A stretch of 20,030 nt of DNA from a virus, in the IMG/VR virus record IMGVR_UViG_3300023196_002948, positions 1-20,030 of that record; one strand, 5' to 3'. Shown here piece by piece: positions 1 through 11,826 of this stretch (the first letter of the stretch is position 1; each line of letters begins with the position of its first letter). Both the position numbers and the translations under genes were made by a program. The notes below the pieces were generated by a model. It did no database searches. It was not told the origin of the DNA and saw only the letters and a list, made by a program, of their open reading frames with translations.

Positions 1-216
1 GATTGTCTAGATTGTGAGCAGTGCAAATATTGTACAACTTGCGGTTACTGCGCAGCCTGTACAGATTGTACGCTATGTTTTGAGTGTGATCAGTGCATAT
101 ACTGTACAGATTGTGAAGGTTGCGAAGATTGTTATATGTGTACGGACACCATTTACTCTTATTCTAGTGAAAATAAAACTATAGGGGTGCAACTACAGAG
201 CCGCTTTAATAATTAG
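1..216 (+). CDS. Cys-triplet repeat protein, C-terminal part (cut by window edge)
   Basis: Frame 1 is open from the first base to TAG at 214-216, giving 71 residues with no start in the window. Cysteine falls at every third residue from 2 to 47, so 16 consecutive X-X-Cys triplets are visible and the array probably continues to the left. The other positions are mostly Asp, Glu, Thr, Tyr and Gln. At the DNA level TGT/TGC recurs every 9 bases. The last 24 residues have no Cys and form a polar tail. I do not recognise a family. A three-residue period would place all thiols along one face of an extended or 3-10-like helix, which suits metal, Fe-S or disulfide chemistry, but that is inference. Coding is supported by the perfect amino-acid periodicity, with codons varying between TGT and TGC. 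The function is unknown. Confidence 0.75.
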   Translation, partial: DCLDCEQCKYCTTCGYCAACTDCTLCFECDQCIYCTDCEGCEDCYMCTDTIYSYSSENKTIGVQLQSRFNN

Positions 217-264
217 CTTTAATCGCTTGCACTACCTGATAGATAGTGTAAGCTGTTAAGACTA
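203..264 (+). repeat. Structured intergenic repeat, copy 1
   Basis: This 62-base element is about 89% identical (7 differences) to 629-690. It folds into a 13-position stem, GCTTGCACTACCT against AGATAGTGTAAGC, with loop GAT and one C-A mismatch. Beyond a 2x2 internal loop, an outer TTAA/TTAA pairing extends it. It begins in the last codons of the Cys-rich gene and lies just upstream of the 303-635 gene. Size and position resemble the intergenic RNase III processing hairpins of T7 early mRNA, but the function is inferred. Confidence 0.7.
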
Positions 265-302
265 TTTAAGGTAAATCTAAAATCATCATAAGGGGATTGA
301 AT

Positions 303-635
303 ATGTCAGCATACGTTAGCAAAATAATAGCTCTTAGAGAAAAGGTAGAGCGTATCTCGCTAGAGATCGCGGCTACCAAAGACATGTCCGTTTTGGCAGA
401 ATGCCTAAAAACCAGACGCGTGCCAGAGCACGTGGTCAAGAGAGAGGCATACCTGAAAGGGTATTGCGCAAACCACTGGGAAGCTGCCAAAATAAAGGTT
501 GCTGAAAAGCAATCTAAGATACCGAAAATGAGGGAGCGCGTTCAACGCGCCGAATCTAAAATACTGAAAACAAAGATGGAGAGGGTATGGTCTCCTGATG
601 AGGCCGCCCTTCTTTATTTTAGTGGGGCGCTTTAA
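303..635 (+). CDS. Small helical, basic early protein, unknown function
   Basis: This encodes 110 residues. ATG at 303 is preferred over the in-frame TTG at 297 because the Shine-Dalgarno AGGGG (291-295) lies 7 bases before 303 but would touch 297. The protein is rich in Lys, Arg, Glu and Ala and looks almost wholly helical. It has no membrane segment and no motif I recognise. It sits between the two copies of the structured repeat (203-264 and 629-690), so its transcript could be released as a separate piece if those are processing sites. Its start region shares 20 identical bases with that of the 11519 gene. The first residues of the two proteins are also similar (MSAY/MSAF with a few matching hydrophobic positions), which may mean distant paralogy. 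Confidence 0.8.
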   Translation: MSAYVSKIIALREKVERISLEIAATKDMSVLAECLKTRRVPEHVVKREAYLKGYCANHWEAAKIKVAEKQSKIPKMRERVQRAESKILKTKMERVWSPDEAALLYFSGAL

Positions 636-690
636 TAAATAGCCTTAATCGCTTGCATTACCTATCAGGTAGTGTAAGCTGTTAAGACTA
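629..690 (+). repeat. Structured intergenic repeat, copy 2
   Basis: This is the second copy of the 203-264 element. The 13-base-pair stem is kept as GCTTGCATTACCT / AGGTAGTGTAAGC, with loop ATC instead of GAT. The outer stem gains a C-G pair where copy 1 has T-G. The main-stem changes exchange C-G for T-G and turn the C-A mismatch into C-G, so pairing is kept or improved. It begins in the stop region of the 303-635 gene. Confidence 0.7.
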
Positions 691-842
691 CCAAGCACAA
701 AGCAGGCAGCAGTAAGCCTGTTCTATTCCTCAATCTCTGCCCTATGTAGCGGCCACAATGCCGCTCGATATATTCGGTAAGCATAGGTAAGCGACGCCCA
801 ACCCTCTTTAACAGGAGTGTCAGTACTTTGGAGTGTTTCTAA

Positions 843-871
843 TTGTATACGCTAAAACCTAGTTGTATATA
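843..871 (+). promoter_or_regulatory. Possible sigma70-type promoter (weak)
   Basis: TTGTAT (843-848) is followed after 17 bases by TATATA (866-871) in an AT-rich stretch upstream of the structured region and the 1318 gene. Each box matches about 4 of 6 consensus bases. In AT-rich DNA such matches arise by chance, so this is only a candidate. Confidence 0.2.
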
Positions 872-1013
872 TACGTATGTACTAAAGATATAACAATATA
901 TCTTTTAAACATATGTTTATGCAAACGGTTACTAACTGTACGATCAATAGGTCAAGGATAGCTATATCAGACTTAGCGAGATACTTTGAAATGAAAACAG
1001 AGCCACTAATCTT

Positions 1014-1033
1014 AAGCACAACTATGTGCTTTT
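1014..1033 (+). terminator. Short terminator-like hairpin
   Basis: AAGCACA (1014-1020) pairs with TGTGCTT (1025-1031) around loop ACTA and is followed by only two further T residues before AAC. The stem is good but the U-tract is short, so termination would be weak. It could instead be a simple structural hairpin. Confidence 0.3.
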
Positions 1034-1056
1034 AACTATGCCGCGTAAGTAGTCCA

Positions 1057-1078
1057 CTTGTGTACATCTTGTGTACAT
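1057..1078 (+). repeat. Tandem 11-mer CTTGTGTACAT x2
   Basis: Two identical 11-base units lie head to tail at 1057-1067 and 1068-1078. Each holds the palindrome TGTACA, so identical dyads recur about one helical turn apart. This could be a protein-binding site such as an operator or small iteron. No binding protein can be named. Confidence 0.5.
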
Positions 1079-1120
1079 ACTCAATATGCATTAGTTTTAT
1101 GCCTTGACCACCGAACCAGT

Positions 1121-1177
1121 CTAATATTTATACAGTGCATAACACTCTTGCTTGCAACACGAGAGTATAAATATTAG
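1121..1177 (+). promoter_or_regulatory. Inverted repeat with nested stem
   Basis: CTAATATTTATAC (1121-1133) and GTATAAATATTAG (1165-1177) are perfect 13-base inverted repeats. An inner stem, ACTCTTG (1144-1150) with CGAGAGT (1160-1166), partly competes with the outer one. The right arm overlaps the left foot of the next, larger hairpin, so the two structures could be mutually exclusive. Confidence 0.6.
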
Positions 1178-1270
1178 GCGTACATTTAAAGATTACTTAC
1201 TGTTCCCGGATCTTCCTTCCCCCCCTACATAAGATCTGGGGGCGGTAGGTAATCTCTAAATGTACGTCTA
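1175..1270 (+). ncRNA. Long hairpin, 40-position stem with C-rich loop
   Basis: Bases 1175-1214 pair with 1231-1270 with one mismatch (A1189 with C1256) and about six G-T positions. The 16-base loop (1215-1230) contains seven consecutive C. Frequent G-T pairs indicate pairing as + strand RNA rather than a DNA palindrome. It ends 47 bases before the start codon of the 1318 gene, so it is either in that gene's 5' leader or a separate small RNA. A partial copy of its left arm recurs downstream near 1270-1287 (shared core TAGGCG-ACATT), giving the right arm an alternative partner. Confidence 0.55.
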
Positions 1271-1317
1271 TACTAGGCGCACATTCACTTCAATTTAAAC
1301 TAGGGGATATACATATC

Positions 1318-2109
1318 ATGGCTAGAAACAGAAACAGAACTAACCGAAACAAACCTACTGATAATAGCTTGGCTGTTATCAAACCTACTAAGAACCCTGC
1401 TAATGATGGCCAAGCTATCATCAAACCCACTAAGCACAATGACTCCACTAACGCTAGTGGTGAGCTTACTACAGAGCCGGTTAAATTCAAACTTGACGAT
1501 TTAACCCCGTCTAACGACAAGCAACAAAGGATATTTGACCGTGTTAAGTCATACATTAATGCCGGTCGCAACTTGGTTGTAGAATTTGAAACAAACGTTG
1601 GAGAATACTATAGTGGAGATAGTATGAATCCTTCAAACCTCTGTTTTTACATTAACTGTCTAAGAGTACGTCCGCAGATACAAAAACAGGTTCTACAATT
1701 ACTGCCTTTAATGACTGCTATCAACTTTTCTCTGGACGAGGACACCGGTAACAGAACAGCTAAGAATGCTGAGGGCATTACCAAGGAAGACAAGAAGCAA
1801 GGAAGAGCGGCGTTAGAAGCGTTCAAGGCGCTAGAACTAACCACGTTCCAGAAACACCCTTTGTTCAAGAAAGAAAAAGCCGTATATGATTTGTCGAAAG
1901 AAATCAAAGCATTCGACAAACAAATTAAGAAAATGGTTGAAGCCGGTAGCTCTGCATTGCAGTTGCATAACCTTGTTGACTCATACTTTAACAAGCAAGA
2001 GAAAGCAGAAACTAAAAAGGAAGATGACAAAGTGGTTAACATACCACCGGCTGAATACTTGGCGGAATCAAGTAACGATTCTAAAGAAGAACAGAAACAA
2101 ACCGGATAG
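1318..2109 (+). CDS. Hydrophilic early protein of unknown function, own terminator
   Basis: This encodes 263 residues. The start follows AGGGG (1302-1306) by 11 bases. The N-terminus (1-50) is polar and Asn/Lys-rich, with a short internal repeat (AVIKPTKN then AIIKPTKH). Residues 60-190 look like a folded helical domain with some hydrophobic stretches. The C-terminal 60 residues are Lys/Glu-rich and probably disordered. No signal, membrane segment or known motif is seen. It stands alone: a long structured leader precedes it and a strong terminator follows directly. An abundant product from a discrete transcript is a reasonable inference. It could be a nucleic-acid-binding or host-takeover protein, but nothing shows this. 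Confidence 0.85.
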   Translation: MARNRNRTNRNKPTDNSLAVIKPTKNPANDGQAIIKPTKHNDSTNASGELTTEPVKFKLDDLTPSNDKQQRIFDRVKSYINAGRNLVVEFETNVGEYYSGDSMNPSNLCFYINCLRVRPQIQKQVLQLLPLMTAINFSLDEDTGNRTAKNAEGITKEDKKQGRAALEAFKALELTTFQKHPLFKKEKAVYDLSKEIKAFDKQIKKMVEAGSSALQLHNLVDSYFNKQEKAETKKEDDKVVNIPPAEYLAESSNDSKEEQKQTG

Positions 2110-2120
2110 CCTTATCCGGT
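2101..2120 (+). other. Hairpin over the stop codon
   Basis: ACCGGATA and TATCCGGT form an 8-bp stem around GCCT, and the left arm contains most of the TAG stop of the 1318 gene. It is the first of three hairpins in tandem (2101-2120, 2131-2161, 2166-2187) and may protect the 3' end of the mRNA. Confidence 0.6.
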
Positions 2121-2130
2121 AGTACCATAT

Positions 2131-2165
2131 AAGCCAGTACTTTATAGGGAAGTACTGGCTTTTTT
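2131..2165 (+). terminator. Strong intrinsic terminator
   Basis: AAGCCAGTACTT (2131-2142) pairs perfectly with AAGTACTGGCTT (2150-2161) around TATAGGG, followed by a run of T to 2165. The 12-bp stem plus T-tract is a textbook Rho-independent terminator, placed just after the 1318-2109 gene. Confidence 0.9.
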
Positions 2166-2187
2166 GTGTCCACTATTCAGTGGGCAC
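2166..2187 (+). other. Hairpin directly after the terminator
   Basis: GTGTCCAC pairs with GTGGGCAC around TATTCA (8 bp, one T-G). There is no T-tract. It immediately follows the terminator's T-run and could be the 5' end structure of the next transcript or a processing site. Confidence 0.5.
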
Positions 2188-2302
2188 TGCTTAGGGGATT
2201 AAACTACAAAATGTTAAAGACTTAAAGAGTAAGATCAGAGATTATTATTTTTTTTACTACAGAGCCGCTAATAAAGCAGCGATGATATTTTAAGGAATGA
2301 AA

Positions 2303-2377
2303 ATGTCAACTATAAACGATGTGATTCTTAGTTTTTTATTTGTTTACTTTACTACAGAGACGAGTGAATTATCATGA
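2303..2377 (+). CDS. 24-residue hydrophobic leader peptide
   Basis: ATG at 2303 follows TAAGGA (2291-2296). The product has one short hydrophobic stretch (VILSFLFVYF) and ends at TGA 2375-2377, which overlaps the next gene's ATG at 2374 as ATGA. That overlap suggests translational coupling to the 2374 gene. It could be a tiny membrane peptide or only a coupling leader. The recurrent ACTACAGAG motif lies inside it (2351-2359). Confidence 0.5.
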   Translation: MSTINDVILSFLFVYFTTETSELS

Positions 2378-2670
2378 TGAAAAACGAGATATTAGTTCTT
2401 GAGCTAAGGCAGCTCAAGAAGCGACACCTCTTGCTAGAGGATCATATAGCTACTCTTAAACGAGAGGTGGCAGCTACTAAAGAAAGCGCGGACAGTAGGA
2501 TAGCTACTGTTCTTGACCTAGTTAAAAGAATGCTTCGGGTTGAGTTACTGCCCGAGATTGACCAAGCCCGTATACAGCTGGGCCTTGGTAATCATAAAGA
2601 GGCGAACGCAAGGGTGTGTAACAGCATTCAAATTATCTTGAATGAATTAGAGACGCTAGGAGAGAAGTAA
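2374..2670 (+). CDS. Small coiled-coil protein
   Basis: This encodes 98 residues and begins with two Met codons (2374 or 2377). Residues 5-60 are rich in Leu, Glu, Lys and Ala with heptad-like spacing, so a coiled coil is likely. There is no membrane segment or catalytic motif. It starts inside the end of the upstream leader peptide and its stop overlaps the ATG of the next gene (TAATG), so the three are probably one translationally coupled set. Function is not recognised; a structural or scaffold-type partner role is inference. Confidence 0.75.
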   Translation: MMKNEILVLELRQLKKRHLLLEDHIATLKREVAATKESADSRIATVLDLVKRMLRVELLPEIDQARIQLGLGNHKEANARVCNSIQIILNELETLGEK

Positions 2671-3242
2671 TGATACCTGATGAAAACAAATACCAAGTCT
2701 TAACAGAAATAGTGGACAGAAGGACAAATAAAAGCAACAAAATAGGATTTAAATACAGTGACGGTCACTACTCGTTGTATGTAGACGACGAGTACATTGT
2801 CTGCATATCTGCAAAGAACAATCCTATAGATTATCTCTTTGATCAGGATAAGGAGCAACTATTGTTCCTTATGGTCGTCTTGGAAGCAGAAGATCAGCTG
2901 TACAAAGGAAAGGGAGAGGGCAGGCTGCATGACGAAATAGCTAAAAGAATTGTGCTGGAAGCATCCACCTTAGCCACAAAGCATCGTCTAATGGATGTGT
3001 GTGAGCAGAACAGAATTAGGACTGACGTAACTATCTTCAGTCTACATAAGTCTCAACTCTCGAAATATTACCGAGAGTATAGGAAGCACCATGTCTTTGT
3101 GAGGCTTGGTGATGGTAAGACCTTGTCTGTTTTCAAAAGTTTCTCAGGTGAGAGTGCTAGAGCTGTAGCGAAAGCTACAAGAGAGACTTTTAGAACTAAT
3201 CTTGTAACCGTAATACCCCCTATCAACCAAGGAGGACGCTAA
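2670..3242 (+). CDS. Conserved-looking hypothetical protein
   Basis: This encodes 190 residues starting at the A shared with the previous stop (TAATG). It has mixed alpha/beta character: an N-terminal part with beta-like segments (KIGFKYSDGHYSLYVDDEYIVCI), a central helical region and a basic C-terminal third with Ser/Arg/Lys (KSQLSKYYREYRKHH). No signal, transmembrane segment or known motif is visible. It is followed closely by the 3244 gene, whose Shine-Dalgarno (AAGGAGG) lies in its last codons. Function is unknown. Confidence 0.8.
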   Translation: MIPDENKYQVLTEIVDRRTNKSNKIGFKYSDGHYSLYVDDEYIVCISAKNNPIDYLFDQDKEQLLFLMVVLEAEDQLYKGKGEGRLHDEIAKRIVLEASTLATKHRLMDVCEQNRIRTDVTIFSLHKSQLSKYYREYRKHHVFVRLGDGKTLSVFKSFSGESARAVAKATRETFRTNLVTVIPPINQGGR

Positions 3243-3243
3243 C

Positions 3244-3435
3244 ATGCGTAAGGAAAACGTAAATATTACTTTCGAAAAGAATATGGTAGCTGTATTCGAA
3301 AACAGGCACGGTGCCCTTAAGGAGGGACGCATAGTGCTTGTCAAAGACAAGACAGTCAGGATATGGACAGGATTAATCCACGCGGAGACAGTGCTTAAAT
3401 CTAACGTCTTGGACACTTATCATGACCACCATTAA
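3244..3435 (+). CDS. Small basic protein, possibly SH3/KOW-like fold
   Basis: This encodes 63 residues, with a strong Shine-Dalgarno AAGGAGG shortly before the ATG. Short beta-type segments with a central Gly and basic turns (EGRIVLVKDKTVRIWTG) suggest a small beta barrel, but this is weak. It ends in a His-rich tail (YHDHH). Its 3' end overlaps the start of the next small membrane peptide by 14 bases. Function is unknown. Confidence 0.7.
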   Translation: MRKENVNITFEKNMVAVFENRHGALKEGRIVLVKDKTVRIWTGLIHAETVLKSNVLDTYHDHH

Positions 3436-3577
3436 GAAGATAGCTTTAATTGCTCTGGTGTTATATGCGGCTACTGCCGTGTATTCGTTCCTTGAGTATC
3501 GAGATACTATAGAAGAGCTGCATAAGCAATGCGTCATGTACTCTTTAACAAAAAATTGTAACCTAGGAATCTTCTAG
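3422..3577 (+). CDS. 51-residue single-span membrane peptide
   Basis: ATG at 3422 lies within the end of the 3244 gene, in another frame. The N-terminus MTTIKK is followed by a hydrophobic stretch at about residues 7-24 and then a charged segment with two cysteines (37 and 46). The short basic N-terminus with Cys residues after the membrane segment suggests an N-in, C-out protein with a possible disulfide or thiol role outside. It is not a lipoprotein, as no lipobox is seen. It could be a small phage exclusion or lysis-accessory peptide, without direct support. Confidence 0.6.
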   Translation: MTTIKKIALIALVLYAATAVYSFLEYRDTIEELHKQCVMYSLTKNCNLGIF

Positions 3578-3612
3578 GTGAACAATAACCAACCCACTAC
3601 AAGGAAAATAAA

Positions 3613-4128
3613 ATGTCAAAAGGTAAAAAGTACTCTCCTAAAGCTAAGACGGAAATCGAACAAGAAGAAGTAGAGGTAGAAGTAGCTAGGGAGGAGACAG
3701 CAAAGTTTAAGGAAAGGTTAACTAAAGAGGCTATCCCCTACGTTCTGATAGCCACAGTCATCCTACTGAGCTTGTTGTATGCTTTCAGTATGGCTATCAA
3801 GAGCTTAGACAACAGTGCCCCTATTACTACAGAGACGGAGAAACGGGCTGAAGACTTCCTTCTTAAAGAAGTTGAAGATGTTCCTCCAATTGAAGTGAAA
3901 ATGGTAGAAGATGTTCCTCCAATTGAAGTAGAAGATGTTCCTCCAATTGAAGTAGAAGATGTTCCTCCAATTGAAGGGCTGAAAGTACTGCAAGTCTACG
4001 TACCTGCGGTGGGTTGGAGTACTCCATCTGAGGGAAAGTCTTTAGACTGTGATGAGGTCTCAGGAACTCTCATTGATAACGATAAAGCGAAGTTTGTAAG
4101 AGGAGTTGATTGCCGGTTCATTAGGTAA
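3613..4128 (+). CDS. Single-span membrane protein with four VEDVPPIE repeats
   Basis: This encodes 171 residues, preceded by AAGG near 3601. Residues 1-40 are highly charged and presumably cytoplasmic, 41-62 form one transmembrane helix, and 87-121 hold four copies of the octapeptide VEDVPPIE, with VKM between copies 1 and 2. The rest is a small C-terminal domain with two Cys (about 144 and 166). The repeats are 24-bp DNA units (3871-3894, 3904-3927, 3928-3951, 3952-3975), identical apart from one base, which points to recent slippage or duplication. The Pro/Glu repeats would act as a stiff spacer holding the C-terminal domain away from the membrane. An envelope role such as exclusion or bridging of membranes is possible. 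Function is unproven. Confidence 0.85.
   Translation: MSKGKKYSPKAKTEIEQEEVEVEVAREETAKFKERLTKEAIPYVLIATVILLSLLYAFSMAIKSLDNSAPITTETEKRAEDFLLKEVEDVPPIEVKMVEDVPPIEVEDVPPIEVEDVPPIEGLKVLQVYVPAVGWSTPSEGKSLDCDEVSGTLIDNDKAKFVRGVDCRFIR
3871..3975 (+). repeat. Four 24-bp direct repeats inside a gene
   Basis: The units at 3871, 3904, 3928 and 3952 each contain GAAGATGTTCCTCCAATTGA. Copies 2-4 are tandem, and nine bases (GTGAAAATG) separate copies 1 and 2. They keep the reading frame and encode VEDVPPIE. Copy number is likely to vary between related phages. Confidence 0.9.
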
Positions 4129-4139
4129 TAGTTCAATTA

Positions 4140-4166
4140 GATAGTATCTCTATAAGAGGTGCTATC
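4140..4166 (+). other. Intergenic hairpin
   Basis: GATAGTATCTC (4140-4150) pairs with GAGGTGCTATC (4156-4166) around TATAA: 11 positions including two T-G pairs. There is no T-tract, so it is more likely an RNA-processing or stability element than a terminator. It sits between the 3613 and 4206 genes. Confidence 0.6.
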
Positions 4167-4205
4167 TTGTAGAACTGTTAACTTGTAAAAAAGAGGGTAA
4201 TACAG

Positions 4206-4484
4206 ATGGAACCTATGATTTTTGTAATAATAGGAGAGATATTCGTCCTATTAACAGTACTTTACGTACACAAAGAATTAAGTGAGAGATTAAGACGTAT
4301 GGAAGCTCATCCAAACATGATGAGTGAAGACGGCGACCTCTCAATTAAGAAGGGTAGAAGCAGCCCTATACGTAGGGGCGGCCCCCCTGCAAATGTATAT
4401 ATTTTAGGCACATCTGATGTCGAAGAGATTATACAGCGTCGTACTGCAATGGACAAAGAAGGTCTCCAAAACCTATCTAAGTGA
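4206..4484 (+). CDS. Small membrane-anchored protein
   Basis: This encodes 92 residues, with GAGGG about 9 bases before the ATG. Residues 3-22 form one hydrophobic helix. A charged helix (HKELSERLRRMEAH), a basic Gly/Pro-rich linker (KKGRSSPIRRGGPP) and a polar C-terminus follow. Positive charge after the helix suggests that the C-terminal part is cytoplasmic. No motif is recognised. It is the last gene before a 553-bp untranslated gap. Confidence 0.75.
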   Translation: MEPMIFVIIGEIFVLLTVLYVHKELSERLRRMEAHPNMMSEDGDLSIKKGRSSPIRRGGPPANVYILGTSDVEEIIQRRTAMDKEGLQNLSK

Positions 4485-4552
4485 ACCGTACTTCTCTTGG
4501 TCAGTCCATCGCAACAAGTATCGTATAAGTCTAGCAGTCCCTGAGATAACGG

Positions 4553-4594
4553 AAAGGAGACAATACCACTATGCCATATATGCATAGTGGTTGA
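4553..4594 (+). promoter_or_regulatory. Seven-codon leader ORF with start buried in a hairpin
   Basis: AAAGGAGA (4553-4560) is a near-ideal ribosome-binding site. About 10 bases on is ATG 4571, which opens a frame of seven codons ending at TGA 4592-4594. The ATG lies in the left arm of a perfect 10-bp hairpin (ACCACTATGC 4565-4574, GCATAGTGGT 4582-4591, loop CATATAT). This arrangement fits a translated leader or translational switch. Alternatively the hairpin is a processing site and the tiny ORF is incidental. Confidence 0.4.
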
Positions 4595-4647
4595 CCCTTG
4601 TGTATCGTCTGAAGCATGACTACATGCTATCGCCTTACCCTACCTAG

Positions 4648-4668
4648 CAATCTAATACCATCAGATTG
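4648..4668 (+). ncRNA. AATACCATC-loop hairpin 1
   Basis: CAATCT (4648-4653) and AGATTG (4663-4668) pair perfectly around the nine-base loop AATACCATC; an outer G-T could add one pair. It lies in the gap upstream of the 664-residue protein gene and is one of five such hairpins in the window. Confidence 0.7.
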
Positions 4669-4742
4669 TAATCATCACACCTTAGCTAGCACAAAAGTAC
4701 TGGAGTATCGCACCAGAGCAGGTAAAGATCTCTTCCTGTCGA

Positions 4743-4805
4743 GTCATATATATAAATGACCAACTACCGATTAGTTGGCACGTCTAAACCGTATTCGAGT
4801 TACGG
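4743..4805 (+). other. tRNA-like set of three hairpins, no acceptor stem
   Basis: Three stems follow in tRNA order: GTCAT/ATGAC (4743-4760), CAACT/AGTTG with a 7-base loop (4761-4777), and CCGTA/TACGG with loop TTCGAGT (4789-4805), which matches the T-loop consensus. Against a functional tRNA, no 7-bp acceptor stem can be formed, the first loop lacks the usual GG and the middle loop lacks T at the position before the anticodon. It may be a decayed tRNA, a tRNA mimic or chance. Confidence 0.3.
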
Positions 4806-4903
4806 GACTTTCTTAGTTGATAATGACTAGCGCTGGCCAGATAAGCCTGAGATATCGCTATGTCAATCGGTAATTCTAAGCAAGGATTGAAAATTGGTAG
4901 CAT

Positions 4904-4920
4904 CTAGGTTTGAATCCTAG
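4904..4920 (+). other. Second T-arm-like hairpin
   Basis: CTAGG and CCTAG pair around TTTGAAT, again a T-loop-like heptamer. GGTAG occurs just upstream but there is no room for an anticodon arm, and no matching acceptor strand lies at tRNA distance. It is listed because two such arms occur within about 130 bases. Confidence 0.3.
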
Positions 4921-5037
4921 TCAGTACTAAATGGGGCAATTAATATTCTCTCTGTCCTATATCTGGTAAGCCTAAGTACGGAGTCGATACGCTTAGGTAA
5001 GAGAGATACCACACGCATCTGAAGGAGTAATACATTA

Positions 5038-7032
5038 ATGATAGCTGTATCTAATAAGAAACATCCTTGCGCTAGGGTTTTTAGGAACCCTCATAGCAAG
5101 TTAAAAGCTAAAAAGAGTGCCTTGTCCTTAGGAATATCGGGCAATGTAAGCGCCATCTCTCCCGTTTGTAGTGGTATTCAGGTAGTGCCTTACCTAGAAG
5201 ACACTATTCTGGATGTAGCCACTCTACTTAAAGAGGTAACGTCTACGCCAACACATGACGATATCAATTACTTCTTATGGCTACGGGATTCAGGGCTTAG
5301 TTCCTTAGAAGATCAGTTGTTGCATCCCTTCGCTCGGAAGACTGTATTGTATACCCCCCTCGATAGTTACGATAAGAAATATATCGAGAAGGTAGGGACA
5401 TTGTGCAGATACAGGAACGAGAGGAGTAGGAAGCATAGAGAAAGAGTGGAAAAATCACACACACCTAAGAGTAGCTCTAGATTGAGGCTTCTAAATAAAG
5501 AGCCTGCTGCTCATCTCTCCTACGTACCGAAAGAAAAGGTGGAAGGGTGGAACTCTTCAAGACCTCCAACTTACTCTCAACTCTTACAGAAGGTGGAGCG
5601 TAACCGCCTTAGTAAGGATTGTGATGGTAGAACTCCTTTAGATGATCGATACTTACTTACGTGGTATGAAAAGTACCTTAATGCTTATTACAACATACAC
5701 AAGTACATTATAACACATCCACCAGCTAGTCCGGAGAGTCAAGAGATGCTTACCAAGTCAAGAGCGTACCATAGAGAGAGGATTAAAAATGCAAGTGATA
5801 CTCCTTGGGACCTTACTCCTAACTTTAGCAGTACTTCAGCCAATGATAGTGGCGGAAGCGATCAAGAAATTAAAGAACTGGAAAGACAAGCGCACCAAAG
5901 AGGATACGAAGAAGCAGTCTTAGATTTAGAACAAGATGAGTCAGCTTCAGCAGACGCATACCAAGCTGGCTACAAACAAGCTATGCTGGAAATGAGTCAG
6001 CAAGGTGTTGTTGAGGAAGGTAGACTTCCCACACACCACACTAAGGCCTACTGGATGGATAGAGAAGGCCACTGCGAGACTAAGAGCGTGCTGAAGAGAG
6101 TTAAAGGTGAAACTGGTACTAACCTACCGGCTGTAGCTAGCGTCGCTTACACGGCCTCTGAGGAGCTTGTAGAGGCACAGGCGAAGTTTACATCTATGAA
6201 GTACTTGCCAGATAATGAGAGGTACGACCGTTGGTTTGACAGTAAATGTGTGATAGCTGAAGACTCCTTACAGTACTTAGGCAAGAGACATTCAACGGGT
6301 AGTTGTCCTCAAACTGTAAAGTTAGAGAGATGGTTGCTTAAACATTCTATCACACCTGCTATATATAAGCAAGTAAAAACTGATTCAGTATTTAACACAC
6401 ACTTTTGGAAGTGGCAAAGTGGACAGATAACCTACCCCACTTTCCTATCACTTACTACAGCGACGCCGCGGGCTACCTCCTCAGCTAATGCTAAAGCTTT
6501 TAACGAGTGGGCAAAAGGACTCTTGCCTGCTACCTCTAAACCTCAAGAAGAAGAGTACGTTCCAAACTTCGTTCTAGTCAAGGATATAGAGTTCGAAGAG
6601 TTATCTTTACAAGAGTACAACCGTCTTACAATGGAACGTTACGGAGTGACAACACGAGAGTTCGAAGAGTTACCTCGTCTTGTAGAAGATCCGTGTACAG
6701 CCCATGTACAAGCTTACGAAGAAGATGTTGAGGTAGTAGATCAGATCCGTAATCGCCTCACAGAGTACGTTGAGGAGTGTAAGAAGGATAAGGTTTACGA
6801 TAAGTTCCTTAGCAAGGTGATAGACAAACCATCTCTAATCACCACAAAACATAAAGCCAGTATTATCAGGCCTGACTTTAATAGGAATACTACTAGCTTG
6901 GATATCGAGGTTATAAATCTTATCCAGCAAGTAGAGACAGGGAGGATAAATAAACATGACCTCAGACGTAGGGCTTTCATAGCTTTTGAAAGAGAATACT
7001 TAATGCCGCTAGTATCTAGTACGTTAGTGTAG
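5038..7032 (+). CDS. Large unrecognised protein (664 residues)
   Basis: The start follows AAGGAG (5022-5027) by 10 bases. This is the largest gene in the window and matches no family I can name. The N-terminal 160 residues are basic and Ser/Arg-rich. Residues 286-321 contain two related units, HQRGYEEAVLDLEQ and YQAGYKQAMLEMSQ, separated by an acidic Ser-rich linker. Residues 380-500 look folded, with several Trp, and the C-terminal 160 residues are charged and helical. There are no membrane helices. I looked for signature motifs of single-subunit RNA polymerases and of Walker-type ATPases and found none. Preceded by a long structured leader and followed by unknown genes, it may be a host-takeover protein or one needed for transcription. 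Function is unknown. Confidence 0.85.
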   Translation: MIAVSNKKHPCARVFRNPHSKLKAKKSALSLGISGNVSAISPVCSGIQVVPYLEDTILDVATLLKEVTSTPTHDDINYFLWLRDSGLSSLEDQLLHPFARKTVLYTPLDSYDKKYIEKVGTLCRYRNERSRKHRERVEKSHTPKSSSRLRLLNKEPAAHLSYVPKEKVEGWNSSRPPTYSQLLQKVERNRLSKDCDGRTPLDDRYLLTWYEKYLNAYYNIHKYIITHPPASPESQEMLTKSRAYHRERIKNASDTPWDLTPNFSSTSANDSGGSDQEIKELERQAHQRGYEEAVLDLEQDESASADAYQAGYKQAMLEMSQQGVVEEGRLPTHHTKAYWMDREGHCETKSVLKRVKGETGTNLPAVASVAYTASEELVEAQAKFTSMKYLPDNERYDRWFDSKCVIAEDSLQYLGKRHSTGSCPQTVKLERWLLKHSITPAIYKQVKTDSVFNTHFWKWQSGQITYPTFLSLTTATPRATSSANAKAFNEWAKGLLPATSKPQEEEYVPNFVLVKDIEFEELSLQEYNRLTMERYGVTTREFEELPRLVEDPCTAHVQAYEEDVEVVDQIRNRLTEYVEECKKDKVYDKFLSKVIDKPSLITTKHKASIIRPDFNRNTTSLDIEVINLIQQVETGRINKHDLRRRAFIAFEREYLMPLVSSTLV

Positions 7033-7089
7033 CGCCACTATATTCGTGTACTTTAAGACACACCCCTAGCAAAATAACAGGAGGGTTCT

Positions 7090-7167
7090 GTGTCGTACTT
7101 AAATCCATCTAAGCGTATAGAGACGAGTTGTTCTGATCAAGTCAATAACAGGTCTGAAACGCCTTGA
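7090..7167 (+). CDS. Possible 25-residue peptide, GTG start
   Basis: GTG at 7090 is placed 5 bases after a strong AGGAGG (7079-7084) and the frame runs 25 codons to TGA at 7165-7167. The peptide is polar with no recognisable feature. The stop lies beside a hairpin, AGGTCT (7150-7155) with AGACCT (7167-7172). The good Shine-Dalgarno is the main support; it may be a regulatory leader rather than a functional product. Confidence 0.3.
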   Translation: MSYLNPSKRIETSCSDQVNNRSETP

Positions 7168-7227
7168 GACCTCTGTAAAATATTAGTTCCTCGACTAGCT
7201 TTAACTTACTTAAAAAGGAGACGTACT

Positions 7228-7914
7228 ATGTGGGTGCGCCACATAAGTCTGAACGGAGACAAAGTTGTCTTAACTGAGAAGCTTACCGGTTTCCGCCTAG
7301 GGAGTGGAAATCCTGCAGACTCCTTCCACAAGATTGGCTGGTGGACAGAAATGAATAGCCTGACCAACGGTCTTAATCGGAAGAAGAAGAGGGCTTATGA
7401 ACTTCACAAAGAGTTGTCCTCGTTGTATGAAGACATCTTGAAGGAAGGTGCACAAATACAAGCAGAGATAGACGACATTAACAAGGCCGTCAAAAAGAAG
7501 AGAGGTGAAGGTATTCCGTACAATATCAAGAACAAGAAACACCTCCCTAAGAAAGAAGTAATACTTGACGAGCAAAATATGGATTGGGTACAAAAGTTCT
7601 TCAACCCCGGATTGTTGAAACAAATCTATAGAAGAGTCAATGTCGACTACATGACAGAAAACAGACAAGGTAAGACCAATAGCTCGGCTAGTAATAGTGA
7701 CGGGCCGCGAGACCTTTCAACAGAAGGCTCTACTCAGACGACTTACGTACTGCCTTCCAGTGATATCTCTGAGAATGACTTGGAGATCATAGCTGATAAG
7801 GAAGGCTCTGATAAAGGAATGCAGTATAGGCCGCCTAGTAATAAACAAAAAGATAATGGTAAGAAAAACCGTGGTGGCGGTAACCATCAAAACAAGCGTG
7901 ATAACCATACCTAG
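7228..7914 (+). CDS. Hypothetical protein with coiled coil and basic disordered tail
   Basis: This encodes 228 residues, preceded by AAGGAGA about 8 bases before the ATG. Residues 1-45 look folded, with Trp and Gly. Residues 48-92 form a charged helix likely to be coiled coil (KKKRAYELHKELSS onward), and 95-140 are mixed. After about residue 148 it becomes Ser/Asn/Gly-rich and ends in a Lys/Arg/Asn/Gly-rich tail (KNRGGGNHQNKRDNHT). Such a tail would bind nucleic acid non-specifically. No enzymatic motif is seen. It stands between two gaps and probably has its own expression unit. Confidence 0.8.
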   Translation: MWVRHISLNGDKVVLTEKLTGFRLGSGNPADSFHKIGWWTEMNSLTNGLNRKKKRAYELHKELSSLYEDILKEGAQIQAEIDDINKAVKKKRGEGIPYNIKNKKHLPKKEVILDEQNMDWVQKFFNPGLLKQIYRRVNVDYMTENRQGKTNSSASNSDGPRDLSTEGSTQTTYVLPSSDISENDLEIIADKEGSDKGMQYRPPSNKQKDNGKKNRGGGNHQNKRDNHT

Positions 7915-8012
7915 CGTAGTGCAGCACTGCGGGCTAAGTCCTATCGTAATTAGGATTTCCTCACCTGAACAAAGCTGAGATATCAGCATGGTCTGCAAGA
8001 ACGTACACCTCT

Positions 8013-8038
8013 AAGAGAGAATACCATCCTCTCTTTTT
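8013..8038 (+). terminator. AATACCATC-loop hairpin 2, terminator-like
   Basis: AAGAGAG (8013-8019) pairs with CTCTCTT (8029-8035) around AATACCATC and is followed by three more T (five T in all from 8034). It fits a moderate intrinsic terminator for the 7228 gene and shares its loop with four other hairpins in the window, most of which lack a T-tract. The loop conservation suggests a second role beyond termination. Confidence 0.6.
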
Positions 8039-8134
8039 GAGTGTGCCAAGGGATGCGGCAGCGATAGACTTGATCTATCACTACAAGTGTCCCGAACTAC
8101 GTTATCCCTCCATAACCTTACAAGGATTGACATT

Positions 8135-8305
8135 GTGTTGAAAAATATTCTAGAAAAATTAAAATTATTTTTTAAAAAAGTTTTTGGCCGTAAGAAGAAG
8201 GCAACTGTCTTTTTTGACCCTTTAGAATTAGAGCCTCTAAAGAGTAAGCCTAGGAACATCGGTGATATTATCGCTGACCAAATGAATAAAGAGAGAGATA
8301 GGTAA
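8135..8305 (+). CDS. 56-residue protein with cationic amphipathic N-terminus
   Basis: GTG at 8135 is chosen because AAGGA (8122-8126) lies 8 bases upstream; an in-frame GTG at 8087 has no such site. The first 22 residues alternate Lys with Leu, Ile, Val and Phe (LKNILEKLKLFFKKVFGRKK), an amphipathic helix that would sit on a membrane surface. The rest is polar and acidic to neutral. The A/T-rich coding sequence at 8140-8180 stands out from its neighbours. The peptide resembles membrane-active helices, so a role at the host inner membrane is possible, but a simple membrane anchor is as likely. Confidence 0.6.
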   Translation: MLKNILEKLKLFFKKVFGRKKKATVFFDPLELEPLKSKPRNIGDIIADQMNKERDR

Positions 8306-8311
8306 TATCTC

Positions 8312-8362
8312 TTAAAGCATTCAAGGTTCTGAGTGCTTTAAAGGATAACACTTTCTGTTATC
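8312..8362 (+). other. Two tandem hairpins before a secreted-protein gene
   Basis: TTAAAGCATTC (8312-8322) pairs with GAGTGCTTTAA (8331-8341), 11 positions with one T-G. Next to it GATAACA (8344-8350) pairs with TGTTATC (8356-8362) around CTTTC. Neither has a T-tract. They form most of the spacer between the 8135 and 8395 genes and could be processing or stability elements. Confidence 0.6.
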
Positions 8363-8394
8363 GTCAACCTTATCTACATACATAGGAAATACTT

Positions 8395-8670
8395 ATGAAG
8401 AACTTTAAATTGATTGTACCTGCGCTAGCCTTATCTCTAGCAGCTCTCTCGACCGCTGCATCCTCACCTGCTATGGTGTCTGAAGTTACTGAAGACAAAG
8501 GCACTATTGCGGTAACCTTGGAGATTGCTGCTGACAAGTGGGAAGCACTGAAGGTGTGGGCCTCTGAAGTCGCAGACTTCTCAGATGAGGGTGTAGAAGT
8601 AGAGGTAGAAAATACTCCTGAGGATGTACAGTACGCAGACTCTTACGAGAACACTCCTCTAGACAAGTAA
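8395..8670 (+). CDS. Small acidic exported protein
   Basis: This encodes 91 residues. The N-terminus has a classic Sec signal peptide: basic MKNFK, a hydrophobic core at about 6-18, then small residues with possible cleavage after A22 or A26. There is no lipobox Cys. The mature part (about 65 residues) is strongly acidic (for example DEGVEVEVENTPEDVQ) and lacks Cys. It should be exported to the periplasm. A periplasmic phage protein made from a non-structural region may modify or inhibit an envelope function, for instance superinfection or proteases. This is inference, as no family is recognised. Hairpins flank the gene on both sides. Confidence 0.8.
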   Translation: MKNFKLIVPALALSLAALSTAASSPAMVSEVTEDKGTIAVTLEIAADKWEALKVWASEVADFSDEGVEVEVENTPEDVQYADSYENTPLDK

Positions 8671-8685
8671 TAAAGCTACTTTGTA

Positions 8686-8708
8686 AAGGGACACATTAAG
8701 TGTCCCTT
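8686..8708 (+). other. Perfect 9-bp intergenic hairpin
   Basis: AAGGGACAC (8686-8694) pairs with GTGTCCCTT (8700-8708) around ATTAA, between the 8395 and 8740 genes. No T-tract follows, so it is more likely an mRNA-stability or processing structure than a terminator. Confidence 0.6.
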
Positions 8709-8739
8709 GTAATCAACACTATAAGGGATACTTAATCAA

Positions 8740-9429
8740 ATGCCAGTCTTTATCAAAACATTATTCAGATTTCCATTCTTCTTAATATGCCTACTAACCC
8801 CTTTCAAGAAAAGGATCCCATTAATACCTCCAATCCCTTGGCACAAAGAACATTACCTCTATGTAACGTTAAGGAATCCGGGTAAGTGGTGTAAAGATCA
8901 AGCTACCTTCCTTAAGAGTATGCGGAAGCTCTTTGGAGAGAACATGGAGAACAGTAAGTTAGTCTTGTTTGATAACGTAGATCTACTCGGAACGTCAGTT
9001 TATACGGACCCCTTTCACTATATGAGTATCACTGAGAAAAGTGAGTGTCTCGAAGGTGACTGGTGTAGGACCTACATACTTAAAAGGACTGACTATAAAA
9101 GGTACCAGAAGAATCCACAGAAGTACCCCGGAGTGCACCTAGCTAACACGGGGGCTGTTGACCTTCAACCTGCTGTGTATAGGGCGTGCATCAGGTTGCT
9201 GCAAGAGGAGCTCCAAGAATCCGAGGTTCCTGTCGAATGTTGTGGTGAGATGAGAAGACCTCTCTGCGAGTTTGACGCCCTTTGTCCTGAATGCGACGAA
9301 GTACTTATTCCTCCTAATTTGATTTCTCGTAACGACGATGTACTTACAACGGTAAAAGCCACAAAGAAGTTCTTGGCTAAACTTGCGCTAGATAATGCGA
9401 TACTGGGGAAAAAGAATGAAGCAGCATAA
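8740..9429 (+). CDS. Membrane-anchored protein with a Cys cluster
   Basis: This encodes 229 residues. A weak ribosome site, AAGGG (8723-8727), lies 12 bases upstream. Residues 4-22 are hydrophobic with flanking basic residues, fitting an N-terminal membrane anchor. The middle is globular. Residues about 167-186 hold a cluster of five Cys, arranged C-C-X8-C-X5-C-X2-C, suggesting a zinc ribbon-like site. The C-terminal helix is Lys/Ala-rich. The arrangement suggests a membrane-tethered domain stabilised by metal. I do not recognise it. Its end overlaps the start of the next gene by 14 bases. Confidence 0.75.
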   Translation: MPVFIKTLFRFPFFLICLLTPFKKRIPLIPPIPWHKEHYLYVTLRNPGKWCKDQATFLKSMRKLFGENMENSKLVLFDNVDLLGTSVYTDPFHYMSITEKSECLEGDWCRTYILKRTDYKRYQKNPQKYPGVHLANTGAVDLQPAVYRACIRLLQEELQESEVPVECCGEMRRPLCEFDALCPECDEVLIPPNLISRNDDVLTTVKATKKFLAKLALDNAILGKKNEAA

Positions 9430-9673
9430 TAACGGTAAGTCTAAAGATTACAAGTCAAGGAGAGAAGAGGCCTCTTACGAGGAAGACACTCCAGTTGTGT
9501 CTCCGGTGGTAAAGTTTGTCCTTTACCTCTACCCTTTCTTAGCAACAACCTTCGCCTTGTTGTACCTTACCGGGGCGTGGGACCCAGCTAATGATGGCTG
9601 GGATATATTTATGGGGCAAGGTATCTTCTGGGTAGCAGTGCTTCAGTGGATACTTGTGGCTTTACTCCCTTAA
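9416..9673 (+). CDS. Two-span small membrane protein
   Basis: ATG at 9416 is preferred (85 residues): GGGGA lies 5-10 bases upstream, and the in-frame ATG at 9395 lies deeper in the preceding gene. Residues 1-30 are polar and charged. Two hydrophobic helices follow, at about 36-54 and 66-84, separated by WDPANDGWD. Two spans with a short loop and charged N-terminus fit a small class II holin, but the position (far from the endolysin) and lack of sequence recognition make that only one possibility. Confidence 0.7.
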   Translation: MKQHNNGKSKDYKSRREEASYEEDTPVVSPVVKFVLYLYPFLATTFALLYLTGAWDPANDGWDIFMGQGIFWVAVLQWILVALLP

Positions 9674-9690
9674 CTTGTAAAGGAACTCCG

Positions 9691-9963
9691 ATGGAATATA
9701 TTTTAAAGAAACTAGTAGTGCTTTCTATAAAGACAGTTGCGGGTATTATTTTCCTAACCATTATAGTTTTGAATGCTGTAGAAATTATTATGAATTGGGC
9801 AGTACCTCTTCTATGGAGGTTAGGTTGTTTGACAAATTCTTTAGCGGAAAAAGTATTGGAAAGTCTTCCTCAGGATTCTCACGAAGTTGAGAAAGAAGAA
9901 CCTGAGGTCGCTCAGTTCAATGAAAGGGAAGTATCAGAGCATCAGGCCGATACTGCTAAATAA
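9691..9963 (+). CDS. Small membrane protein with acidic tail
   Basis: ATG at 9691 follows AAAGGAAC by about 7 bases (90 residues); an in-frame ATG at 9646 lies inside the previous gene without a good site. Residues 9-50 are hydrophobic, enough for one long or two short helices. The C-terminal 40 residues are strongly Glu-rich. With the 9416 gene just upstream it may form a pair of membrane proteins. Holin/antiholin is a possibility, unproven. Confidence 0.7.
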   Translation: MEYILKKLVVLSIKTVAGIIFLTIIVLNAVEIIMNWAVPLLWRLGCLTNSLAEKVLESLPQDSHEVEKEEPEVAQFNEREVSEHQADTAK

Positions 9964-10225
9964 GAGAAGGACCAGAGTAGCTTCTGGAATGTCTCTCTAG
10001 GTATGATGACAACTCGCCTAGTCAAAACACCAAGTTTCAAATGAGAGGTCATCTCCTCTTACCACCCCCTCAACTACAGAGACACTGCCCGACCCTGAAA
10101 AGTCGGTGGCTGTACACAGGGAGTATTCATAAGGTTTCTTAGCGTACGGCTAGAGACTTTAACTTACTTCTTGTGGGCAGCGTTACAGGACTGTATCATC
10201 CACTTGATAAAGGAGTAATCGCCCT
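9964..10225 (+). other. 262-bp gap with short hairpins
   Basis: No supported gene. It contains hairpins CCAGA/TCTGG (9972-9976 with 9983-9987), CTAGG/CCTAG (9998-10002 with 10017-10021) and CCGAC/GTCGG near 10089-10108, and one copy of the ACTACAGAG motif (10073-10081). The 13-mer CTTTAACTTACTT near 10157 also occurs near 7198, in the gap before the 7228 gene, so both gaps may share a regulatory site. Confidence 0.45.
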
Positions 10226-10462
10226 ATGAAATTTGCAACAGGACCACCCTACAGAGTATTGGAGTTTGCACGACTTATTCTGGTAGAGTATCTCTTTCTG
10301 ACAATGGTTGCGTACGGCTTCCATTGGAAGAAGTTTGTTAGAATACTTCGTTCCAGCCCATTCCTCAGAAAACTGGGTAGAGTAATACGTAAGATAGTTC
10401 CAAATAGGAACCTTCAACTAAGACGGGCACTTCGTATGTGCACAATGAGGGATATGAGATGA
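10226..10462 (+). CDS. Very basic single-span membrane protein
   Basis: This encodes 78 residues with a strong Shine-Dalgarno AAGGAG about 11 bases before the ATG. One hydrophobic segment (about residues 14-32) is followed by a highly Arg/Lys-rich C-terminal half (FVRILRSSPFLRKLGRVIRK), which should be cytoplasmic and could bind nucleic acid or acidic lipids. No homologous family is recognised. Confidence 0.7.
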   Translation: MKFATGPPYRVLEFARLILVEYLFLTMVAYGFHWKKFVRILRSSPFLRKLGRVIRKIVPNRNLQLRRALRMCTMRDMR

Positions 10463-10520
10463 GAGTACCTAGTGGTGAAAAGGAGCAGTAACTGAAGGTA
10501 CGCTTTTAATAGTCAGTAGT

Positions 10521-10676
10521 GTGGAAGATCGCTACTCAGCGTTAATAATATTCGCTCATCTCTATAAGAGGAAATATCTTATCAATGTAAGAAGAAGAAA
10601 GAAGTTCTTAGGACGATGGACAGGTGATACTGAATATGAAGACGATGACTCTGAAGGCCCTTTAGAACCCCTCTGA
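10521..10676 (+). CDS. Possible 51-residue charged peptide, GTG start
   Basis: A frame from GTG 10521 to TGA 10674-10676 encodes a hydrophobic start (ALIIFAHLY), a very basic middle (YKRKYLINVRRRKKFLGRW) and an acidic end (EYEDDDSEGPLEPL). This block-like charge pattern resembles the neighbouring small proteins and supports coding. There is no good ribosome site: AAAGGAG near 10480 lies too far upstream and the frame has no ATG. It may be leaderless, use an unusual start, or be a remnant. Confidence 0.4.
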   Translation: MEDRYSALIIFAHLYKRKYLINVRRRKKFLGRWTGDTEYEDDDSEGPLEPL

Positions 10677-10692
10677 GAGACGTAAGAATGAT

Positions 10693-10716
10693 GCAGGCGC
10701 ATACCATCCGTCTTGC
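10693..10716 (+). ncRNA. ATACCATC-loop hairpin 3 (variant)
   Basis: GCAGGCG (10693-10699) pairs with CGTCTTGC (10709-10716) with one bulged T and one G-T pair. The loop is CATACCATC, differing from the other copies only in its first base. It lies between the possible 10521 gene and the 10755 gene. Confidence 0.5.
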
Positions 10717-10754
10717 TTAAAATACCCTTAAATCCACTCAGAGGAGGGCTAACA

Positions 10755-10925
10755 ATGTTGGTTCAGTATATTGGAGACCAAGCGATGTACATGGGAGAAA
10801 TATGTAAATCGTTTATGGTCTTTGCACTTGTATACTATGCCGCTTACAGGCATATCAAACTTAGACGCAAGTATAAACACCTACTTGCACCACCAGCCAA
10901 ACGGCTTAACATGAACGGAGTCTAG
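10755..10925 (+). CDS. 56-residue single-span membrane protein
   Basis: ATG at 10755 follows GAGGAGGG closely; an in-frame TTG at 10713 lacks a site. The first 34 residues are mostly hydrophobic, with Met, Tyr and Phe, ending at VFALVYYAAY. A strongly basic segment (RHIKLRRKYKH) follows, so the C-terminus is probably cytoplasmic. The stop is one base before the next ATG, so the pair is likely translationally coupled. Function is unknown. Confidence 0.7.
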   Translation: MLVQYIGDQAMYMGEICKSFMVFALVYYAAYRHIKLRRKYKHLLAPPAKRLNMNGV

Positions 10926-10926
10926 T

Positions 10927-11241
10927 ATGACTAGAGAAACACAGGAGGTTTTAGACTCCCTGCAAGAGTGCGATGAGTACGTTAAAAATGTAGAAGACCA
11001 ACACTTATCAGGTTGGCGTAGATTACGTCGTCGTTACATGACAGGTAATAGCTTCCTAGCATGGAACCTATCAAGTGTTGTTACATATCTCCAGTGCATC
11101 GCGGGAGCCGCACTGACATTTGGGCCGAAAGCTACTTGGGCCTTTATGTGTATTAAACTCCCTTGGTTAACGACTTCGTTAACTAAAATAGGTACTGCTA
11201 TATCAACAGCAGTTGCAGCGTTTGTTTCAATAGTATCTTAA
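10927..11241 (+). CDS. Small membrane protein, possible holin-like
   Basis: This encodes 104 residues, with CGGAG in the end of the preceding gene. Residues 1-40 are charged, with a basic cluster (RRLRRRY). Hydrophobic helices lie at about 45-65 and 83-104, with a Lys/Pro-containing loop between. A charged N-terminus followed by two spans rich in Ala, Thr, Ser and Gly resembles holins and pinholin-like proteins, but the gene is about 6.3 kb from the endolysin and no family is recognised. Confidence 0.7.
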   Translation: MTRETQEVLDSLQECDEYVKNVEDQHLSGWRRLRRRYMTGNSFLAWNLSSVVTYLQCIAGAALTFGPKATWAFMCIKLPWLTTSLTKIGTAISTAVAAFVSIVS

Positions 11242-11261
11242 TATAATTTATGCATGTGATT

Positions 11262-11292
11262 TGTTGTAATTTAATACCATCATCTTACAACA
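11262..11292 (+). ncRNA. AATACCATC-loop hairpin 4
   Basis: TGTTGTAA (11262-11269) pairs with TTACAACA (11285-11292). Inside, after a 2x2 internal loop, T11272-A11282 closes the nine-base loop AATACCATC (11273-11281). It follows the 10927 gene. Confidence 0.65.
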
Positions 11293-11312
11293 GTAAAATG
11301 GAAGCACTGCTC

Positions 11313-11343
11313 GTAAGAGTCTTAATACCATCAAGACTCTTGC
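11313..11343 (+). ncRNA. AATACCATC-loop hairpin 5
   Basis: AAGAGTCTT (11315-11323) pairs perfectly with AAGACTCTT (11333-11341) around AATACCATC; a T-G and a G-C pair extend it to 11313/11343. It lies 20 bases after hairpin 4 and has no T-tract. Confidence 0.75.
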
Positions 11344-11407
11344 CCTCCACGTATCAGCTCCGAAGACGACTTTCTGGGGAAGTTTGAGAGGAGACAGACT
11401 AGTACTG

Positions 11408-11460
11408 AGACATGCACCTTAAGCATTCTTTCTTAACAAGAGTGTTTAAGCGGCATGTCT
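11408..11460 (+). other. Long imperfect intergenic hairpin
   Basis: AGACATGC (11408-11415) pairs with GCATGTCT (11453-11460). After a small internal loop, 11418-11430 pairs with 11438-11450 (13 positions, two G-T) around a 7-base loop. The whole stem is about 21 pairs, in the size range of an RNase III substrate. It lies about 60 bases before the 11519 gene. Confidence 0.6.
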
Positions 11461-11518
11461 TACGGAAAACTCTGTGGGATATATCTGATACAGAATACAC
11501 AAAGAGGAGGGATTGAAT

Positions 11519-11701
11519 ATGTCAGCATTTAATCCGCATATCGTAGAAGTAACTAGAATGGTTACCGATTTGAGTAATAAGCACATTGGAGAACTCAATT
11601 GGGCCACAGTCGAGTGGAAGATTTTAGAGTTGTACAACCCCGATAGTTGGGGACACCCTATCGAACAGGTCGTTCCACTTATTAATTTTAACTTTAAGTA
11701 A
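11519..11701 (+). CDS. Small protein sharing its start region with the 303 gene
   Basis: This encodes 60 residues. ATG at 11519 lies 8 bases after GAGGAGG (11504-11510). The 20 bases at 11509-11528 are identical to 293-312 at the start of the 303 gene, covering the ribosome site and the first codons. The protein has no membrane segment; it is mostly helical with two Trp and a hydrophobic C-terminus. The first 20 residues show weak similarity to the 303 product. Function is unknown. Confidence 0.7.
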   Translation: MSAFNPHIVEVTRMVTDLSNKHIGELNWATVEWKILELYNPDSWGHPIEQVVPLINFNFK

Positions 11702-11770
11702 CCAGTACTGAACCATCCTACTAGAAATATACAAAAGAATTAAGTCTCATGAACTTTCTTCTTTGGTCAG

Positions 11771-11802
11771 TTGTCTAATTTTGTACTTAATATATTAGAC
11801 AA
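11771..11802 (+). promoter_or_regulatory. Inverted repeat upstream of the primase-helicase gene
   Basis: TTGTCTAAT (11771-11779) and ATTAGACAA (11794-11802) are perfect 9-base inverted repeats separated by 14 AT-rich bases, 25 bases before the 11827 start. The spacing (about 23 bp between half-site centres) suits a dimeric regulator. It could also form an mRNA hairpin. This is the likely entry to the replication module. Confidence 0.45.
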
Positions 11803-11826
11803 ATTATTCTAGGGTGGTTCTTTTAC

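Follow-up and report, generated by a model that had tools for sequence, protein, structure and literature searches.

The window analysed here is a fragment of viral DNA of 20,030 nucleotides (nt), comprising positions 1 to 20,030 of the IMG/VR record IMGVR_UViG_3300023196_002948. Its early region carries five hairpins that present a shared 9-nt loop:

Hairpin 1, 4647..4669, + strand: stem of 7 base pairs (bp), GCAATCT/AGATTGT, with loop AATACCATC at 4654-4662; within a 550-nt gap upstream of an open reading frame (ORF) of 664 amino acids (aa).
Hairpin 2, 8013..8035, + strand: 7-bp stem AAGAGAG/CTCTCTT, with loop AATACCATC at 8020-8028; about 100 nt past the stop codon of a gene here called F228, and followed by a T run.
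Hairpin 3, 10693..10716, + strand: 5-bp stem AGGCG/CGTCT (longer if a bulge is allowed), with the variant loop CATACCATC at 10700-10708.
Hairpin 4, 11261..11293, + strand: outer stem of 7-9 bp, internal loop TTT/ATC, with loop AATACCATC at 11273-11281.
Hairpin 5, 11313..11343, + strand: 11-bp stem GTAAGAGTCTT/AAGACTCTTGC, with loop AATACCATC at 11324-11332.

The loops follow the pattern [AC]ATACCATC. The + strand of the window has five copies of ATACCATC and the - strand one, the latter within the ligase gene; the chance expectation for both strands together is 0.54. The original prediction had described five hairpins of 6-11 pairs, with all loops on the + strand and in gaps between genes. The five loop copies are real, and continuous stems of 7, 7, 5 and 11 bp enclose those at 4654, 8020, 10700 and 11324. 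The range of 6-11 pairs was slightly generous, because the stem at 11273 is split from its loop by the internal loop. The placement was borne out: all five sites lie outside called ORFs, though positions 1-11826 of the window are 74% coding (ORF calls were mechanical here and in all other records except L090, described below).

Four hairpins in the window combine a 9-nt loop of the form NNNRCCANY with a stem of 5 bp or more, compared with a mean of 0.13 and a maximum of 1 in 30 shuffled sequences. Similar numbers in shuffled sequence, which would have spoken against selection, were thus not obtained. Within the early region, a stem of 5 bp or more encloses four of the five loop copies but only 1.0% of all positions; the corresponding p-value is optimistic, as the loop was first spotted in hairpins, and independent support comes from the relatives.

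Relatives were traced via the primase of the window among IMG/VR records and PQ867844 (L090), annotated Zobellviridae. Each phage was scanned for hairpins sharing any repeated loop, and the sequence of the window loop was not assumed. A search of related phages for the exact loop, as first proposed, yielded no set of ATACCATC hairpins comparable to that of the window. The own-loop scan revealed sets above shuffles in L103, L101, L090, L086 and L174, and a smaller, weaker set in L177. The primases of these six phages are 48-56% identical to that of the window, and their loops are as follows:

L103: TG[AT]G[CT]CANT
L101: TG[AT]G[ACT]CANT
L090 (PQ867844): [AT]GNG[AC]CA[AT]T
L086: AAC[AGT]CCAAT
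L174: AAACCCANT
L177: TATG[AC]ATGT

The family loop has 9 nt in the window and in all six relatives, and the stems within a phage are largely unrelated. Among 45 hairpins, position 2 of the loop is always a purine, position 9 is always a pyrimidine, and positions 6-7 are mostly CA. With the family defined as three or more sense hairpins that share a phage-specific 9-nt loop and lie upstream of the primase gene, it was found in the window and the six relatives, and was not found in L169, in L171 or in six further phage records; the own-loop scan gave no hairpin set in L169 or L171. In other Zobellviridae and one Autographiviridae record the same scan returned only the T-arms of transfer RNAs (tRNAs); these arms, with a TTCGAAT loop that recurs on different stems (L135, L227), served as its positive control. 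Like these T-arms, the present hairpins combine a fixed loop with varied stems; they differ in the loop itself and form no cloverleaf. REP, MITE and IS200-type dispersed repeats are homologous over the whole length of their copies, which is not the case here, the stems being unrelated within a phage. A doubtful set in L091, partly within a gene, was dropped, and repeats of ACTACCATC in L086 were set aside, as they lack adjacent stems and are mostly coding.

Covariance models of Rfam gave no match at the hairpins. A covariance model of the family (R2) was built, as had been suggested; its per-hit E-values are weak, the motif being short. Two DNA patterns taken from conserved flanks matched only L101 and L103 in IMG/VR, and a scan of bacterial genomes with the primase alignment found no close relative. 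On the primase tree, the phages with hairpins fall into three subgroups, with negative or unexamined ones in between. From this distribution the family is probably an old one, and its gaps would reflect losses or drift that escaped detection. The original prediction would have been weakened by relatives that keep the genes and lack both loop and stems; in six relatives the hairpins persist and only the loop is changed, and L169, L171 and probably L091 do lack them.

The hairpins are strand-specific. In a whole-genome search with the loop patterns, a stem of 4 bp or more stood next to 42 of the 87 sense matches and next to none of the 13 antisense matches, and every one of the 42 stem-bearing sense matches lies upstream of the primase gene or at its start. 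Because the loop patterns were derived from the clusters themselves, the antisense, reversed and permuted-pattern controls carry more weight here than p-values. Counting only ORFs of 40 aa or more that have a Shine-Dalgarno sequence, 40 of the 49 sites lie in none of them.

An exposed 9-nt loop would also suit a kissing interaction, in which it pairs with a trans RNA of phage or host, and the L177 loop holds the palindrome ATGCAT. However, no complementary loop within a hairpin was found in any of the genomes searched, and loop positions 3, 5 and 8 vary within a phage. Such pairing is quite improbable, and pairing with a phage RNA in particular is unlikely. The complementarity to the loop once pointed out in the ligase gene of the window (GATGGTAT) was dropped as a pairing partner and looks coincidental: the ligase gene was absent from the tblastn matches in all other hairpin-bearing relatives, and none of the antisense loop matches lies in a hairpin.

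Four of the 49 sites adjoin a Shine-Dalgarno sequence (L103 1715, L101 1847, L090 40231 and L174 1357). In the window, hairpin 3 is nested in an outer stem of 8 bp, CCTCTGAG/CTCAGAGG, and the 3' arm of this outer stem overlaps the Shine-Dalgarno sequence of the next ORF. These cases are what translational operators, with a repressor bound to a hairpin near the ribosome binding site, would look like. Most sites, however, lie within genes or are separated from the next start by tens to hundreds of nt, and such a role for the family is unlikely. The operator hairpins of known repressors (gp43 of T4 and RB69, the MS2 coat protein) share with the present family the drift of the loop among related phages and probably the specificity in the loop bases, but each is a single autoregulatory site at one start codon, whereas here there are many sites and few are near a Shine-Dalgarno sequence. 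The drift of gp43 operator loops is documented (PMC3014915, PMC3526286): the loop is UAAC in T4 and RB69, and UAAA in RB49 (PMC3014915).

Homologous sites in different phages showed that the stems covary. At the site after the conserved GGAAGGTCTTACTTT, the stems are CTGC/GCAG in L101, CTAC/GTAG in L090 and a version of ATCCC/GGGAT in L103, with the loops TGTGCCAAT, AGTGACAAT and TGAGCCAAT, respectively. A tandem pair of hairpins keeps its spacing of 26-27 nt in L103, L101 and L090, and the loops change within each phage. A third site is conserved 34-36 nt upstream of a tRNA-like RNA and carries three unrelated stems. Thus, the flanks and the loop core are kept at homologous sites, and the stems change compensatorily. 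Over 40 hairpins, 86% of stem pair cells are standard, compared with 42% when shuffled; these rows were partly chosen for pairing, so the homologous sites are the cleaner test of covariation. At stem positions 5-12, internal G-U pairs outnumber A-C pairs by 18 to 4 (p=0.004), favouring a structure in the sense RNA over one in DNA.

The same numbers bear on a DNA-level role, in which the hairpins would be sites for primase, origin sites or single-stranded promoters for an N4-like polymerase. Single-stranded DNA allows hairpins to extrude, and TGGY, which resembles T7-type primase sites, is present on the opposite strand of many loops. But the excess of G-U over A-C is as expected of sense RNA, the sites are confined to early coding strands and mostly to untranslated regions, and the promoter hairpins of N4 have 3-nt loops; a role in DNA is very unlikely. 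That the set consists of chance repeats or ordinary intrinsic terminators is scarcely credible. Short stems are common in any genome, and the family shares with terminators its intergenic hairpins; the loop is constant here, however, and a T run right after the stem is found only at window 8020, the one T-tract site of the original prediction. The shuffles, the strand bias, the independent families in relatives and the covariation at homologous sites contradict both ideas. The families in relatives, the strand bias and the covariation, together with the excess of internal G-U pairs, uphold the earlier suggestion of selection for an RNA structure and a partner that reads the loop.

Judged by sequence, the stem of 4-13 bp is free in sequence and presents a 9-nt loop that is near-constant in any one phage; from phage to phage the loop drifts around NRNNNCANY. 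The genome comparison likewise indicates that the sites are on the coding strand of the early region, lie for the most part outside genes, and stay at homologous places while the stem sequences change. The hairpins are probably cis-acting RNA sites in untranslated parts of the early transcript, with a loop that would be read by a coevolving trans factor, most likely a phage-encoded RNA-binding protein. A trans-acting, fast-evolving factor may bind the loop and coevolve with it. A phage early RNA-binding protein is favoured over a host protein as this factor because the loop is phage-specific; if it were read by host proteins, the loop would tend to stay constant. Binding might act on the fate of the early transcript, through elongation, processing or stability. 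Messenger RNA (mRNA) might also be parted from the tRNA-like RNAs that share these gaps, and translation may be controlled at a few sites. Transcript fate is preferred to translation start because so few sites adjoin a Shine-Dalgarno sequence.

Several observations weigh against this interpretation. Some hairpins fall in coding sequence. L091, close to the window on the primase tree, has only the doubtful set. The L177 loop is a loose fit to the consensus, and the L177 stems have loop-adjacent bases in common. The gene F228, conserved in most of the hairpin phages, is also present in two phages with no visible hairpin family, L169 and L171; for this reason the F228 protein is only a weak candidate for the loop-binding partner.

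Two more specific versions of a protein-read site were considered, both of them doubtful. One is antitermination as in phage lambda, in which host RNA polymerase, modified by a phage protein that sits on the hairpin, reads through the long early region. In sequence, the variable stems and phage-specific loops resemble boxB. A search of seven records for a sigma70 region 4 domain found none (the control was positive), and no T7-type RNA polymerase was found, though in that case the control gave no positive; host polymerase is therefore probably used, and it would have many non-coding gaps to cross. The lambda nut/boxB and N system has in common with the present family a short hairpin in early RNA and a phage-specific loop, probably also read by protein here. 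It differs in that the loops here have 9 nt, most of the phages carry several copies per early region (usually 3-9 sites, not one or two by the promoter), the flanks showed no boxA-like element to the eye, without a formal search, and no N-like protein was identified among early proteins that are too diverged for a screen.

The other version is that the hairpins are signals for processing or decay: an endoribonuclease of phage or host, or a protein that blocks exonucleases, would read the loop and part mRNAs from tRNA-like RNAs or time the decay of early mRNA. The sites cluster in long gaps with tRNAs or tRNA-like RNAs, one of them at the conserved distance before such an RNA, but they also occur in gaps without evident non-coding RNA; no nuclease candidate was found, and the stems are too short for ordinary RNase III. 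T4 RegB, an early-mRNA nuclease acting in intergenic regions, is a precedent (PMC3014915). Its target sites are likewise concentrated in gaps between early genes, but RegB reads GGAG/U, whereas the present loops are stem-bound and none contains GGAG or GGAU.

Beyond cis-acting sites for a phage protein, it is possible, as a more tentative idea, that this Zobellviridae-related, podovirus-like clade tags its own early RNA with several copies of a hairpin that bears a phage-specific loop code, read by a coevolving phage protein. Such self-identification would protect, process or continue transcripts, alongside phage tRNA-like RNAs. No published description of such a family was found in the open-access literature, and it has no match in Rfam; in function it would resemble boxB/N and the gp43 operators. 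Protein-RNA hairpin pairs of phages, such as boxB/N and MS2, became standard models and tools. Considering that several natural sites per genome are available in at least seven related phages with differing loop codes, the family offers a ready coevolution series in which the partner can be sought by loop swapping. It also offers a way to study how a long early transcript is managed by phages that have no evident sigma factor.

Two genes of the early region lie next to the hairpins:

FBIG gene, 5038..7032, + strand: 664 aa, no known family; hairpin-bearing gaps on both sides.
F228 gene, 7228..7914, + strand: recognised by profile matches.

Early proteins are too diverged for tblastn, with the exception of one small protein; profiles recover FBIG and F228. 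FBIG homologs were found by profile search in L103, L101, L090 and L086, and the structure model of FBIG was uninformative. F228 is present in the window, L086, L103, L101, L090 and L091; the match in L174 is weak, and in L177 the protein was recognised by eye. In an AlphaFold2 model of moderate quality, the F228 protein has N-terminal beta strands, a long helix and a tail rich in Gly, Asn, Gln and Lys; a fold search with this model gave no match.

The early gaps are long, and tRNAs, tRNA-like RNAs and YrlA-like RNAs are present there in several relatives. Matches to YrlA-like RNA (a Y RNA with a tRNA mimic) in early gaps were obtained at L103 7541-7644 (39.3 bits, E 2.5e-5) and on the - strand at L090 34445-34547 (31.8 bits, E 0.0021), both below the gathering score. 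These suggested a TROVE (Ro60) protein as partner, which was rejected, as neither L103 nor L090 has a TROVE/Ro60 gene. A tRNA-like RNA ending in CCGACCA lies 3' of a conserved family hairpin at L103 8033-8107, L101 8255-8352 and L090 about 34080-34185 (- strand); the L101 copy is above the Rfam cut-off for tRNA (30 bits), and the L103 copy is a weak match to transfer-messenger RNA. T-arm-like GGTTCGAATCC occurs at L086 2400-2500, L177 1950-2060 and window 4900-4930. In L086 and L177 it is followed by a short hairpin and then by the D-arm-like GGCGGAAA...GGTATACGC, as in permuted tRNA-like RNAs; a family hairpin of L177 (loop at 2010) occupies the D-loop position of one of these. At L103 11021-11803, the primase frame is broken at 11056 and resumes near 11803, with weak group I intron matches in between (35.2 and 21 bits, below the cut-off).

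Other repeats were also noted. A 22-nt motif, YWACTACAGAGMCG..., recurs at window 190, 1466, 2254, 2349 and 3824, several copies being right before genes, and may be a promoter or a second RNA element. Window 202-264 and 628-690 form a 63-nt repeat (89% identical) with a strong hairpin, GCTTGCAYTA...TAGTGTAAGC, in each copy. The palindrome GTTGTCTAGACAACA, a candidate operator, is repeated in the early regions of L090 (four copies) and L103 (1-14 and 406-420). An iteron-like array of 15-nt units like AACTTAAGGNATGCT lies upstream of the early genes at L102 260-560, and an in-frame 24-nt tandem repeat at window 3863-3980 encodes EDVPPIEV.

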